Under the pieces are notes generated by a model. That model was not told where the DNA came from, searched no databases, and was given only the letters and a program-made list of their open reading frames with translations. The translations under genes and the position numbers were made by a program. A DNA stretch of 64,000 bases from the NCBI GenBank assembly GCA_020747065.1, contig JAGMVK010000008.1, forward strand, positions 1,178,001 through 1,242,000. The letters are read 5' to 3'. Of this stretch, positions 41,201 through 46,589 are shown in pieces. How positions within the stretch are numbered: the stretch's first letter is position 1; each line of letters begins with the position of its first letter. Source of the DNA: Cadophora sp. MPI-SDFR-AT-0126. Taxonomy: Eukaryota; Ascomycota; Leotiomycetes; Helotiales; Ploettnerulaceae.

Positions 41201-42305
41201 CACCCATTTCTTGGGAGATATTTCAAAGTTCTTCCTGTGCTCCGTCATCTCTGCACTACAGTAGAAACAAAAAAGATGTAAGCTGGATTCACACAACCAA
41301 ATTGCTAATTGCGATATCTACCGTTATCAGATGGCAAGGCAACAAGGCAAGAGCCAATCGCTGATTAGAATGGGAGCGAAAGGAGACCAGAGATACTATC
41401 CCATTCATCTCTGTTTCCAGTATCTGCGACATGGCTTAGGGCAGACCTCATGGAGAACCTAGCTGGTTCTCGAATTCTTATCCATGGGACCCGACTCGGG
41501 TAGTCTTACCTGGAAGTCGTATTTGGACGCCAATCAGATCCAAGTATATTCTTATTTGGACTTTATCCATTCATAATTGAAGCATACCCGGGCTCCGGTC
41601 GCAAGCTGACATGTCATCTTGTTACTAGGGTGTTTAAGTAAGGAAAAGTCGAGAAATGTCCCAGAAGAGCATCGACTAGAGCATGTGCTTTCGACGTGGC
41701 AAAGGTGCGAAACTCCTGAGAAATCCTGGGGAAATTTTTTTTTCGGACTTCGTGAACTCAAAACTCTTAAGAACAAGAACATTGGTTTCAAAATTTCCAA
41801 TCCAAGTTCAACATGCTCTTATTAAAACTGTTCAGAGGATCCAAAGTGCCGAAATGAGAACTCCTAGCTTGGTCTTCGCTACCAGCAACATGTGTAAGCG
41901 ACCAAGTGGCCGGCCATGATACTCCCAGACGACCCAACACCCCAATTCTCGGGACATTCTAACGCAGTCTTAACGATAATTGCTTACACACTTCCCAAGT
42001 ACTCGGGTTCAAAAGAATTGTTCCAGGACGGACTTTCCGGATCCCACGACGAAGCCTAACAAACCTGATTTCTCAATCGTGACAAACACCTGACGAATCG
42101 GCTCAGGTAATCCAGCCCTAAAATGGCGGAATAGACCCCGCGCTCAGGGCAGTAAAAACACTCCACCCAGCTCCATCGTCAGCCTCGTCTTCGTTGACAG
42201 CAATAGCCATAAACATTCAACTCTTCCAAAAGAAATCTTGTCTATATTTCTCCCTCATAGGAAAGTTCGAGTTTCTTTACCTGGTCTTGGAAGATTGTTC
42301 TGGAA
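38266..42305. other. Long gene-free stretch, 4.0 kb
   Basis: The longest gap in the window. The left end is the promoter of the zinc-cluster gene and the right end the promoter of the interrupted dioxygenase gene. Frames at 38944-39570 and 39410-39946 overlap on opposite strands, and the first does not begin with ATG. I see no transposon ends, coding relic or RNA gene that I can support. Confidence 0.45.
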
Positions 42306-42326
42306 ATGGCAGATCCAGCATTGTAT
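42306..42326 (+). pseudogene. Detached first seven codons of the DOPA dioxygenase gene
   Basis: ATG GCA GAT CCA GCA TTG TAT encodes MADPALY, the expected N-terminus of the dioxygenase whose remaining exons resume at 44329 with TYPSPLAGWENAP. The 2,000-bp element sits between them. Reading on from codon 7 enters the element and stops after 15 more codons. Confidence 0.8.
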
Positions 42327-42358
42327 CCCACCGACCGCCATCGGTTGCACCTTTTAGC
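42327..42358 (+). repeat. Left terminal inverted repeat
   Basis: Starts CCCACCGACCGCCAT and ends GCACCTTTTAGC. It pairs with the right end over 29 positions with 3 mismatches and one 3-nt gap. Confidence 0.85.
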
Positions 42359-42420
42359 CGGACAGGGATTCTGACCAATCAGAGAGCCGCATTTCAGGGT
42401 TGGATGCAGTCAATTCTACT

Positions 42421-44184
42421 CTACTCTACAGCGCCATGATACCTATCAAAACAAGGGCCTTCTTTACATAGATGAATATTACACTGTTTACAGCCATACC
42501 AGACGTAACTGCGTAAGGGAGAAGCCTGAATATTCGTTGATATTTCCCCTAAGGGTACACGCTGTTGAGACCCCCTATACCTCTCCCCTTGACACGCTCT
42601 ACAGTTACCTCTCCAGGTCATACGTAGTTTCTGATGACGCGCTGCCGGAATAAGAGATTCGTCAATATTTCCGTGTGAATAATGTCGTTTCCTCGTGCCC
42701 GGAGCCGGTCCAGTAGAATGAAGTAATGCCCGCATGATTTCCTTCCTGAATTTGACTTGAGTCGTCCACTTGTCCTTGTCGTCTACATTCCAATGGTCTT
42801 CGATATTAGCATGTATCGAAATCAAGTAGCAATTGACAAGGACCGTCTGAAGAAGCCAGTTCCATAGGGCCTGCCAACCCCCTCTTCTAATTGGTCTGTC
42901 CCCTGAATTGTACGCCTTAAGCTGATCACCAACATCCACGGCATTCATGAATTGGTTATAAAGCCAGGCAAATTCGGGCTCATCTAAATCCCTCACATTC
43001 TGGTCTCCAAACCATAGTCTAGAGACAGCCGCATTTGAAGAAGTTTCACTTGGTTTGTGACGGGGGGTGCTGACGGTACCGGTGCCATCGCTGCAATTCA
43101 TCATAAAAAGCGTAGGTGCGTTGTCGTTCCAGAGAGCCTGGGTAACAGTATTGTCGGTGTTACAGGCTGTAAAGAGAGCATTGTAAGGTATCCGGGTCTC
43201 TACTTTCTTTGCATTTGCTTGCAAAGTCAAGAGCCTTTGTACGATACCGGCATCCCGTCTTGCTGTCCCAATAGCACCAAAACCAAGCTCCCGGAGGTAC
43301 ATCATCAGCTTGTTCGACACAAAGAGGTTGTCTAGCAAAACGATATAATTTGCGGAAGGAAGACGGCATAAAAGATGTGGTACTACAGCTTGAGTACGAT
43401 TCCCAGTGAGGCCGGCTCCCCTATTCGTCTTTGGACCACCAAGTGCAGCAGGAGCTCGTACGCCTTCCGGTCCATTGGCACCTTTAGAATGCCAGGTCCA
43501 ATGTAAAAAGTAGCCTAATTGGGCTATAACCCATACCTTATAACCCGTAGGGATAGGTTTGGATGGTACAGTTGTTGTCTCAAAAGCTCGTCCGGTAAAG
43601 CGTTGCATACACTCATCCACAGCAAGGTTTCGGCCAGGTGTCCAGAGCCGAAGGGATACTCTCTGAATGTGAGAATTCAGTGGTTCTACCCTCTCAAATG
43701 ACCGTAACTTCGTGCCCTGAGGTGGAGGGGCACAAAGACAGAACCTCCGATGTAGAATCTCAAAGCGGTTCCGTGACATGTACTTGCGTACTGCGTGTTG
43801 CGGCCCATCCTCCTCCGTAGACCAGTAATCCTCAATTTGATTCTCTACATGTATTCCCATGTAAATCAAGACTCCAAGGTAAACCTTAATCTCCGGGAGA
43901 GTAGTGTTGTACCAGCCATTTGAGCGAGAGTGAGGTTTGACGGTTTCAGGCTCTTTGACATTAAGATTTGTGAAGTCTACGATTTGCTGGAGTATCTCGT
44001 CCGTGAAAAAGAGAGAGAATATAGCAAAAGGATCAGTAGAACTGACAAAGAGAGGTAGGTTTATTTGGGGTTGAAAGTCAAGGCAATGGAATGGGATAAA
44101 TGGCCCAGAACCCTCTTTAATCGGCTTCGCTTTAGGACGGTATGTTCCATCAAGGATAGGATCAGGTTGCATGTCTTCAGCCAT
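42421..44184 (-). CDS. piggyBac-type transposase (DDE_Tnp_1_7)
   Basis: Intronless, 587 residues, uninterrupted. The N-terminal half has the transposase helical region (EIKVYLGVLIYMGIHVENQI, YMSRNRFEILHRRF). The catalytic acids fall in the expected contexts: LAVDECMQRFTGR (Asp190), YIVLLDNLFVS (Asp285) and MNAVDVGDQLKAY (Asp417, with Asp420 nearby). The C-terminus is a Cys-rich domain (CRACQGERY, then GCKQCNIHLCKEGPC), matching the zinc domain that piggyBac uses to bind its ends. It would excise and reinsert the surrounding element by cut-and-paste. It lies antisense to the host dioxygenase gene. All acids and cysteines appear intact, so activity is plausible but not shown. Confidence 0.93.
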   Translation of the reverse strand: MAEDMQPDPILDGTYRPKAKPIKEGSGPFIPFHCLDFQPQINLPLFVSSTDPFAIFSLFFTDEILQQIVDFTNLNVKEPETVKPHSRSNGWYNTTLPEIKVYLGVLIYMGIHVENQIEDYWSTEEDGPQHAVRKYMSRNRFEILHRRFCLCAPPPQGTKLRSFERVEPLNSHIQRVSLRLWTPGRNLAVDECMQRFTGRAFETTTVPSKPIPTGYKVWVIAQLGYFLHWTWHSKGANGPEGVRAPAALGGPKTNRGAGLTGNRTQAVVPHLLCRLPSANYIVLLDNLFVSNKLMMYLRELGFGAIGTARRDAGIVQRLLTLQANAKKVETRIPYNALFTACNTDNTVTQALWNDNAPTLFMMNCSDGTGTVSTPRHKPSETSSNAAVSRLWFGDQNVRDLDEPEFAWLYNQFMNAVDVGDQLKAYNSGDRPIRRGGWQALWNWLLQTVLVNCYLISIHANIEDHWNVDDKDKWTTQVKFRKEIMRALLHSTGPAPGTRKRHYSHGNIDESLIPAARHQKLRMTWRGNCRACQGERYRGSQQRVPLGEISTNIQASPLRSYVWYGCKQCNIHLCKEGPCFDRYHGAVE

Positions 44185-44297
44185 CTTTTCTGTGGTAATT
44201 TGAGTGAGAATTGCTCTTGTTATGGCACATTGACGATTGTATTAAGGGGGTGTTGATGTGCCGTCGCGGGGGGCAACGACCCCTGCAACCCCACCAC

Positions 44298-44326
44298 GCT
44301 AAAAGGTGCCTATGGCGGTTGGTGGG
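44298..44326 (-). repeat. Right terminal inverted repeat
   Basis: GCTAAAAGGTGCC, then a segment ending GGCGGTTGGTGGG. Its reverse complement matches the left end from CCCACC inward. Confidence 0.85.
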
Positions 44327-44328
44327 AT

Positions 44329-45149
44329 ACGTACCCCTCTCCGTTGGCGGGGTGGGAAAATGCCCCGCAGTTACCAGACGAGAAGGCTGAGGATGGGAAA
44401 AGTGAGTTTATCTTCTCAACGAAAGAATATTTTGATCTTTCTTACGTATCTCAAGATAAGTCTGTAAATACGGAAGATTTACTAATTCTCATCTTCAGGC
44501 TACAAAAACCCTCAAACGGGAGTGTTGAGCAAGAGTTATGAACGATTCACTGAACCGCTCGATAATGGCAGACGAGGAGCTTTGTATGTGCTTTTCCTCT
44601 TTTCTCCTTTTCTCTGAATCGAATTGGATAAATTTGGAGAGATGTTGTTGCAATGAATCAGATTGAATTGGACTGATTGACCGAACAGTGATATACACAT
44701 CTACTATTTCCAAGCCAACCCCCAACAACTCCAATTCGCCAAAGGACTCTGGACACGAATCCGTCTCGAATGTAAGTCCTGCCTTGCCCCTTCCCATTCC
44801 CTTTTTCCTAACTCCTCTCCCAATCCCCAAAGCTTCCCAAACCCTAAAACTAACACCAACTCTTCCCCCCACAGTCCCCGAACTCCGCATCTACACCTTC
44901 TGGGACCGACCCGTCGGCCCCCACCCCGTCGCCATGTTCGAAGTGAACCTCTTCACCCCCGCGCAATTCGGGGCTTTCATCCCATGGCTAGTGATAAACC
45001 GTGGTCCGCTGAGTGCGCTGGTACATCCGAATACGGTGGATGAGGAGGGCAAGATGTTAGATGAGTATAGGGATCATACGCAGAGGGCGACGTGGATGGG
45101 GACGCCGGTTGTGTTAGATCTGAGTATCTTCAAGAACAGGGGGAAGTGA
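44329..45149 (+). pseudogene. DOPA 4,5-dioxygenase family gene, separated from its start codon
   Basis: Exons 44329-44401, 44499-44583, 44689-44771 and 44875-45149, with GT-AG introns of 97, 105 and 103 nt. Together with the seven detached codons they encode 178 residues, typical of the family. Hallmarks are YPSPLAGWENAPQLPDEK, the metal-binding strand FDIHIYYFQANP, FPELRIYTFWDRPVGPHPVA, MFEVNLFTPAQFGAFIPWLV and the C-terminal DHTQRATWMG. The family cleaves catechol rings extradiol; the physiological substrate in fungi is unclear. There is no in-frame ATG between the last stop in the element (44254-44256) and the fourth exon, so this allele should make no functional protein. The coding part itself is undamaged, which suggests recent inactivation. 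Confidence 0.85.
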
Positions 45150-45511: not shown

Positions 45512-46589
45512 TCAGTCGAAGGCGGCGCCATTCGCTTCTACTGACATAGGACTCCCACCACCGTTGGCACGACGGTTTCTTCGAGACTGTTGTCTGAGGC
45601 GAGTTGGGGCACCATTCATGGACTCCTCCTCACTTTCTTCGGGATGTTCAGCGTTATAAATGGCAGCCTCGTCTAGGTCCCTGATGTCTTCGGGACGGTC
45701 TCTCAGCCAAGACATGCGTGGACCACTTCGTGCACGTTCTGAGACTCTGAACCCGTAGATCTTGGGCTCATACATGTTGCCTTTGCCAAGCCCGGGCGCG
45801 AGGTTGGCAGCGTTCATGCCATTGATCTTCTCCTTCTCCTCTCCATCAGAAGCCGCTTGTAGTGTTCGGTTGCTGTGAGAACCAGCAATAGCCTCGACGC
45901 CCTTCTTGCTGATATCGTAGTCGGGGAAAGTCATGAGGAAAAGAGCACCAAACGTTCGGCCGAAGAAAGCCCCGTCGACTGTCTGGAATCGAGAGTTCGG
46001 TGGAACGTAAACATCCAGGCAGGAAGGACAGAACAACTTAACAGTATCTTCTCCTGGTACATCTGATAACCCAACAGGCAATGTGCGAGTTCCTCCACAG
46101 TAAGTTCGAGGGCAGACACCAAAATGTGTGAGTTCGTACTTTTCGGACATTTGTTGGATACCGGCGCGAGAGCAGATAAATCGTTGATGGATAAGACCGT
46201 AGAGCATTTCGGCAGAGGATTCAATGATGGAGAGGTCGGAAGCCATGCGATGGTGTCTCCGGTCTGCCGCAGCTCTGCGATTTAATCGTTCCTCCCCTTC
46301 GATCGAGTCATCTCCTTCCTCTTCCTCCTCATCTTCCTCATCATCCTCATCCTCTTCAGGCTCAACATCTAGGATCATCTAGAGTCCTCATTAGCTCAGC
46401 TCTCATTGATATGTATTCGCGCGAACATACCTCTAGTGCCTCCTTATACATGGCCACCTGTGTCTGGAGTCCTGTCAGATTGAAATCATCCTCAATGAAG
46501 TCTTCTGATATCTCCGCAAAGTATTCATGGCCGAGTAAGGAACAAAACGATGATATCCATGATTCTGGTGTGCCTGATGAGGAAGACAT
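45512..46589 (-). CDS. CKB1: Casein kinase 2 regulatory (beta) subunit
   Basis: Exons 46589-46431 and 46378-45512 with a 52-nt intron, 341 residues. The opening SWISSFCSLLGHEYFAEI, then EDFIEDDFNLTGL, is the invariant CK2-beta N-terminus. A Glu/Asp tract follows (about residues 58-85), as in yeast Ckb1. The zinc finger has Cys142, Cys147, Cys170 and Cys173 with the canonical 5/23/3 spacing (GVCPRTYC, LFCPSC). GRTFGALFLMTFPDYD is the conserved segment after the zinc finger. The C-terminal tail (YEPKIYGFRVSERARSGPR, then about 70 low-complexity residues) is longer than in animals. The subunit dimerises through the zinc finger and anchors two catalytic subunits. Whether it corresponds to yeast CKB1 rather than CKB2 is inferred from the acidic insert. 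Confidence 0.93.

Follow-up and report, generated by a model that had tools for sequence, protein, structure and literature searches.

Canonical piggyBac transposons duplicate the tetranucleotide TTAA, have 4-base TTAA overhangs and restore TTAA upon excision (PMC3408717, PMC8086355), and the terminal motif CC[C/T]T together with TTAA is described as the hallmark of these elements (PMC2872659). According to a survey of animal piggyBac elements the target is mostly TTAA, a few variants of the same 4-bp length occur beside it, and CCCAT is among the motifs given there (PMC10813416). From the truffle Tuber indicum the element Ti_tr1 has been described with a PF13843 transposase of 566 aa encoded in three exons, a TA duplication and 52-bp inverted ends, and its class is called unclear in that description (PMC3864998). 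In Paramecium the domesticated PiggyMac is reported to excise internal eliminated sequences by 4-base staggered cuts centred on TA (PMC3408717). Here we describe a piggyBac-type element which lies in exon 1 of a DOPA 4,5-dioxygenase gene of the ascomycete Cadophora sp. MPI-SDFR-AT-0126 (Helotiales), within a 64,000-nt stretch of one contig (JAGMVK010000008.1, positions 1,178,001 to 1,242,000; in the following the window) of an assembly of 54 Mb in 38 contigs. Going beyond an earlier note on this stretch, which had reported the split gene, the element and one extra copy of AT, we find that this AT stands in place of the TTAA expected for piggyBac and that this is systematic in the genome.

The features of the disrupted gene and of the element, in window coordinates, are the following.

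42306-42326, + strand: 5′ piece of the DOPA 4,5-dioxygenase gene, exon 1, codons 1-7, ATGGCAGATCCAGCATTGTAT (ATG...TAT), encoding MADPALY
42325-42326: left AT copy of the 2-bp target-site duplication, within TAT/CCC, identical with the last two bases of the 5′ gene piece
42327-44326: piggyBac-type element in dioxygenase exon 1, 2,000-bp core CCC...GGG with ends CCCACC
42327-42358, + strand: left imperfect terminal inverted repeat
42421-44184, - strand: intronless open reading frame (ORF) of the transposase, 587 aa from the first ATG, PF13843
44298-44326, - strand: right imperfect terminal inverted repeat
44327-44328: right AT copy of the duplication, within GGG/ATA
44329-44401, + strand: rest of dioxygenase exon 1, beginning TYPSPLAGWENAP, with ACG TAC CCC encoding TYP...
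44499-44583, + strand: dioxygenase exon 2
44689-44771, + strand: dioxygenase exon 3
44875-45149, + strand: dioxygenase exon 4 with the stop codon, PF08883 match

Three introns of the GT-AG type (97, 105 and 103 bp) separate the four exon pieces of the right-hand part of the gene, which ends at 45149 and encodes 171 residues. It has no stop and no frameshift, as the earlier note had stated. In a Pfam search the exon 4 region (44874-45146) matches PF08883 with 96.5 bits; ring cleavage of DOPA is a putative activity of the gene product, taken from the name of this family only. That the two gene pieces had once been continuous can be judged from the homologues. We searched with the right-hand part alone and found 1,067 homologues, the best 120 of which were listed and all aligned. 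Since the query lacked the seven N-terminal residues, a match to these residues in the homologues constitutes independent evidence. Exactly 7 residues precede the T matching codon 44329-44331 in 99 of the 120 aligned proteins (4 to 15 residues in the remaining 21), and MADPxLY runs without a gap into TYPSPL. Among these best 120 the closest protein, P0001 from Cadophora sp. M221, is 93% identical over the 171 remaining residues; its N-terminus is MADPSLYTYPSPL / MADPSLYTYPSPLEGYENAPQ and its length of 178 aa equals 7 + 171. The homologues P0002 and P0005 start with MADPALY, the same seven residues as encoded by 42306-42326, and the next named relatives are from Oculimacula (89% identity), Rhynchosporium (86%) and Drepanopeziza (85%); by these relatives the source is probably a member of the Helotiales near Cadophora. 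The homologues thus rule out that MADPALY and TYPSPL have come to lie side by side by chance, and they bear out the proposal that both belong to one N-terminus; the observation named beforehand as speaking against it, homologues whose N-termini do not join MADPxLY to TYPSPL, was looked for, and the homologues do join them.

The flanks of the element alone fit either a duplication of AT within TATA or a duplication of TA with one more base in the inverted repeat, so that the sites with a known unoccupied state have to decide. In the dioxygenase gene the codons A-L-Y-T-Y become colinear with the homologues only if the net gain is 2,002 bp (the element and one AT), which reproduces the claim that deletion of the element and one AT joins the pieces in frame; by frame arithmetic neither the TA reading (2,004) nor the reading without duplication (2,006) is colinear. 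A relative of the element at L027 (C12:2832495-2834515) splits an open frame of 684 codons. There the alignment of the protein P0188 with the left piece extends to residue 424, and that with the right piece starts at residue 427 (the second residue of that piece). Between the two pieces P0188 has a single residue, Y, as the junction codon TAC under AT predicts. In P0187 from Cadophora sp. DSE1049 the junction is spanned by ASLLYDYG, and the protein ends a few residues further on. The split frame is conserved, with P0190 as a further Cadophora homologue. For L017 there is an unoccupied paralogue, L040, which aligns with the AT-joined flanks over 119 bases; the alignment is free of gaps, has a single mismatch and includes 16 bases left of TATA. 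A second unoccupied match, L043, extends over 108 ungapped bases with 92% identity and reads CATA; L044 reaches just four bases left of TATA and adds little. L040 and L043-L046 are copies of a separate repeat of apparently about 2.2 kb with inverted ends (TAACCG.CTTCCCTTA.ATAATCCCGCCCC), which is the landing site of the L017 copy. Finally, at L018 (C20:240928-242932) a frame of 517 codons is open under AT and the left side reaches only 18 codons under TA. Since a different frame on the left, 185-186 codons long, stays open under two further readings, we use L018 as supporting evidence against TA and not as a decisive site. Read from these sites, the duplication is AT, and neither TTAA nor TA, at three sites (the dioxygenase gene, L027 and L017) and more weakly at the fourth (L018), and a reading without duplication is excluded both by the homologues at the level of codons and by the unoccupied L040. 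The broken frames at L018 and L027 gave no Pfam family over the cut-off and the L018 frame no NCBIfam match; by eye the latter resembles a membrane protein.

The target rule extends to all copies whose ends we examined. TAT and ATA directly flank the element in 31 of 31 copies, which represent several piggyBac-like families and one family of miniature inverted-repeat transposable elements (MITEs): 19 copies of the element and its relatives, two of a second family (L001-L002), four of further families (L068-L071) and six 262-bp MITEs. TTAA flanks were found in none of the 31, and no base outside TATA is fixed. The way in which the ends were located favours the TAT finding in some of these families, as the ends of L001, L002 and the MITEs were found with the strings TATCCC and GGGATA and for L068-L071 the TAT-bounded row was picked among the inverted-repeat matches; the ends of the MITEs lie no more than two bases from those of the BLAST matches. 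Compared with the motif CC[C/T]T, the CCCACC of the element has the CCC, and its fourth base is not T; the ends of the other families begin with CCCA, CCCC, CCCT or CCG, and a few of these ends are mutated. The six MITE copies (L055-L060 on C14, C37, C2, C25, C8 and C4) are 99.6-100% identical and have the ends CCCCTCAAGCGG. L068 is a fuller element with the ends CCCCTCAAGTGG; its transposase match is in two pieces, both free of stops, and it may be the mobiliser of this MITE family.

The report of a complete piggyBac-type element between the gene pieces was reproduced from the transposase domain and from the inverted ends. The match to PF13843 (DDE_Tnp_1_7) scores 162.4 bits and covers the whole profile (positions 1-349 of 349), and the imperfect inverted ends of about 30 bp are 85.7% identical when positions 1-35 of the left end are compared with the right end and the flanking TAT is counted in. 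The transposase sequence also matches the solved proteins piggyBac (E 4e-14) and piggyBat (E 1.5e-9), significantly so over the first part of the core. Residue D189 (the Met uncounted) falls within the significant alignment to both structures, 6x67 and 9c0f, D416 within a weaker second stretch of both, and D284 within a stretch of 9c0f with negative score only. Together these three residues, which may correspond to the DDD triad, are the probable catalytic triad of the transposase. Among 7,997 candidates scored we found at least 65 transposase homologues; of these, a single metagenomic protein shows 88% identity at full length, and the others reach at most 57%.

Several observations concern the age of the insertion. 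Two more copies of the element (C36, C19) are identical across all 2,000 bp and have unrelated flanks. Ten copies form a sister group with 79-83% identity to the window copy. The four more diverged among them depart from the majority of the group at 418 positions; at 399 of these the change is C>T or G>A, as is expected under repeat-induced point mutation (RIP). The TpA/ApT ratio is 1.19-1.37 in these four copies versus 0.88 in the window copy, whose composition is not RIP-like. The broken dioxygenase gene has kept the consensus residue at all 68 alignment columns that are conserved to at least 95% in the 120 homologues. Three identical copies, no RIP-like composition and 68 of 68 conserved positions retained argue that the insertion into the dioxygenase gene is probably recent, in support of the same suggestion in the earlier note, according to which the loss may also be a strain polymorphism. 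Among the sister elements, the copies L016, L017 and L018 (C23, C12, C20) are 100.0% identical, L018 being one base longer, and each transposase match contains one TAG. These may be copies of a defective element mobilised in trans, or the TAG may lie within an intron or be read through.

We next weigh AT against a duplication of TA as given for Ti_tr1 by the truffle authors (PMC3864998), in which case the element would end in T-CCC...GGG-A. The flanks of all 31 copies permit this parse, and a number of results speak against AT or at least do not favour it. In a mechanical test of the 31 loci, where a frame had to be open for at least 70 codons on both sides, AT reached this length at L018 and L027, whereas TA reached it at the dioxygenase locus (L012), with a stop-to-stop frame of 70 codons across the junction versus 46 under AT, and readings without an AT or TA duplication did so at L013, L018 and L025. 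L013 and L025 thus lean away from AT; neither side of these loci has a Pfam match over the cut-off. All other loci remained below 70 codons under every reading, and the test is mostly uninformative. For comparison, of 1,500 random window positions 9% have 70 or more open codons under a wrong 2-bp offset, and 0.13% have 185 or more. A fifth site, L026, gives no decision, its unoccupied relative L074 being 76% identical with several indels near the junction; for L023 no paralogue of the empty site was found, and the joined flanks of L020, tried as an unoccupied site, led to a neighbouring MITE family instead. In addition the 31 copies comprise 25 of transposase type and 6 MITEs, against 76 PF13843 matches in the genome, among which some copies are counted twice. 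The shorter frame under AT at L012 is, however, explained by exon 1 ending soon after the junction, so that here the homologues decide. With TA the unoccupied site would be two bases shorter, but the paralogue L040 has the full TATA, and the dioxygenase and L027 genes would both be frameshifted relative to their homologues. Being contradicted at three sites, and with only 18 codons left of the junction at L018, a TA duplication is highly unlikely, and we retain AT.

Even with the AT duplication accepted, a working dioxygenase could still be made by an unusual splice, from a non-AUG start or from a promoter and start supplied by the element. All strongly conserved residues and the splice sites are kept, which would also fit continued selection, and from TYPSPL upstream an open frame extends 24 codons into the element. 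This stretch, however, contains no ATG, as had been noticed before for the right end of the element, and the first Met of the right-hand part is residue 101 of 171. In their present state the two gene pieces lie in different frames; the frame of the native ATG, the sole ATG in 42151-42326, enters the element and hits a stop at 42372. From this ATG none of 18 GT-AG pairs with acceptors at about 44200-44402 yields an in-frame open protein, confirming that a GT-AG splice across the element is out of frame, and a scan of all acceptors from the left end of the element onward revealed no GT-AG rescue of the frame either. Rescue via GT-AG splicing was rejected after these two scans, and we regard a working protein as unlikely. 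The only other PF08883 region of the genome at E <= 0.001 (C35:420858-421454) is weak (34.9 and 29.1 bits), so that no close paralogue was found as a stand-in for the broken gene. As far as GT-AG splicing and AUG starts are considered, the dioxygenase gene is almost certainly null in this strain. The insertion might also be an assembly artefact or be restricted to a part of the nuclei in the culture that was sequenced, and it counts against our reading that the locus and its join are known from the assembled sequence of one genome alone. But the junctions obey the TATA rule of the 30 other copies, and three identical copies with different flanks could hardly have been arranged by mis-assembly; of the alternatives considered we hold this to be the least likely.

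We therefore favour the following explanation, which we consider very probable. A recently active transposon of the piggyBac superfamily has inserted into the TATA spanning codons 7-8 of the dioxygenase gene (TAT ACG), the central AT has been duplicated upon insertion, and the start codon has thereby been parted from the remaining gene. Because the 2-bp AT duplication lies in a palindromic TATA, the simplest inference is that the two strand transfers are spaced by 2 bp (T^ATA on both strands) and not by 4 bp as at TTAA in canonical piggyBac. If a branch with such an AT stagger exists, 2-nt hairpins, 2-nt 5′ overhangs and clean excision are to be expected, seamless excision being a prediction.

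Genes broken by transposons are common in fungi, and the loss of the dioxygenase is by itself minor, though a clean case. It is the duplication of AT in TATA, in every family examined here, that merits the attention of specialists; the gene disruption is an ordinary event. As TTAA is treated as a piggyBac hallmark, PF13843 elements with AT in TATA offer a natural variant for the question of what sets the cut distance, a variant based on codon-level and unoccupied-site evidence and including one element whose transposase frame is open and whose copies are identical. They also call for caution with annotation pipelines that require TTAA. As to the surroundings of the gene, the next gene downstream (45512-46375 of the window, - strand) encodes a casein kinase II regulatory subunit (PF01214 match of 159.5 bits), and an Rfam search of the window gave no match at gathering scores.

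Comparing the locus with other described systems, Tc1/mariner elements have a TA target duplication and their own type of transposase. Membership in this group was rejected, as the duplication is AT and Pfam gives PF13843 only (E <= 0.01). ISL2EU elements duplicate AT and encode their own type of transposase and a second protein; set against this general description alone, the element here shows PF13843 only and one long ORF over most of its length. Compared with ascomycete DOPA 4,5-dioxygenase-like proteins (PF08883), the copy of this genome has its start codon and first seven codons severed by the element. With piggyBac of Trichoplusia ni (PDB 6x67/6x68) and piggyBat (9c0f) the element shares PF13843, the aligned D residues, a C-terminal Cys/His-rich segment and ends starting with CCC; it is unlike them in that AT in TATA is duplicated in 31 of 31 copies here and the 4-bp TTAA there. 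It thus has the transposase domain of the piggyBac superfamily and lacks the TTAA. In the open-access PMC literature, subscription journals and Repbase lying outside this search, AT in TATA was not found for piggyBac-like elements. PiggyMac, as described, is alike in being a piggyBac-derived enzyme that acts at non-TTAA sites with a conserved central TA. Ti_tr1, compared by its published description, likewise comes from an ascomycete, carries a PF13843 transposase and has a 2-bp duplication other than TTAA; here, in contrast, we find AT in TATA, imperfect ends of about 30 bp and an intronless frame of 587 aa. The use of AT in TATA may also be the reason why the class of this one fungal element was called unclear. 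The best reading of the several piggyBac-like families and the MITE family seems to be that they represent a fungal piggyBac branch which inserts into TATA with a 2-bp stagger, and we lean, with some reserve, towards the view that this whole fungal branch, Ti_tr1 included, has shifted from the 4-bp TTAA to a 2-bp AT stagger in TATA.

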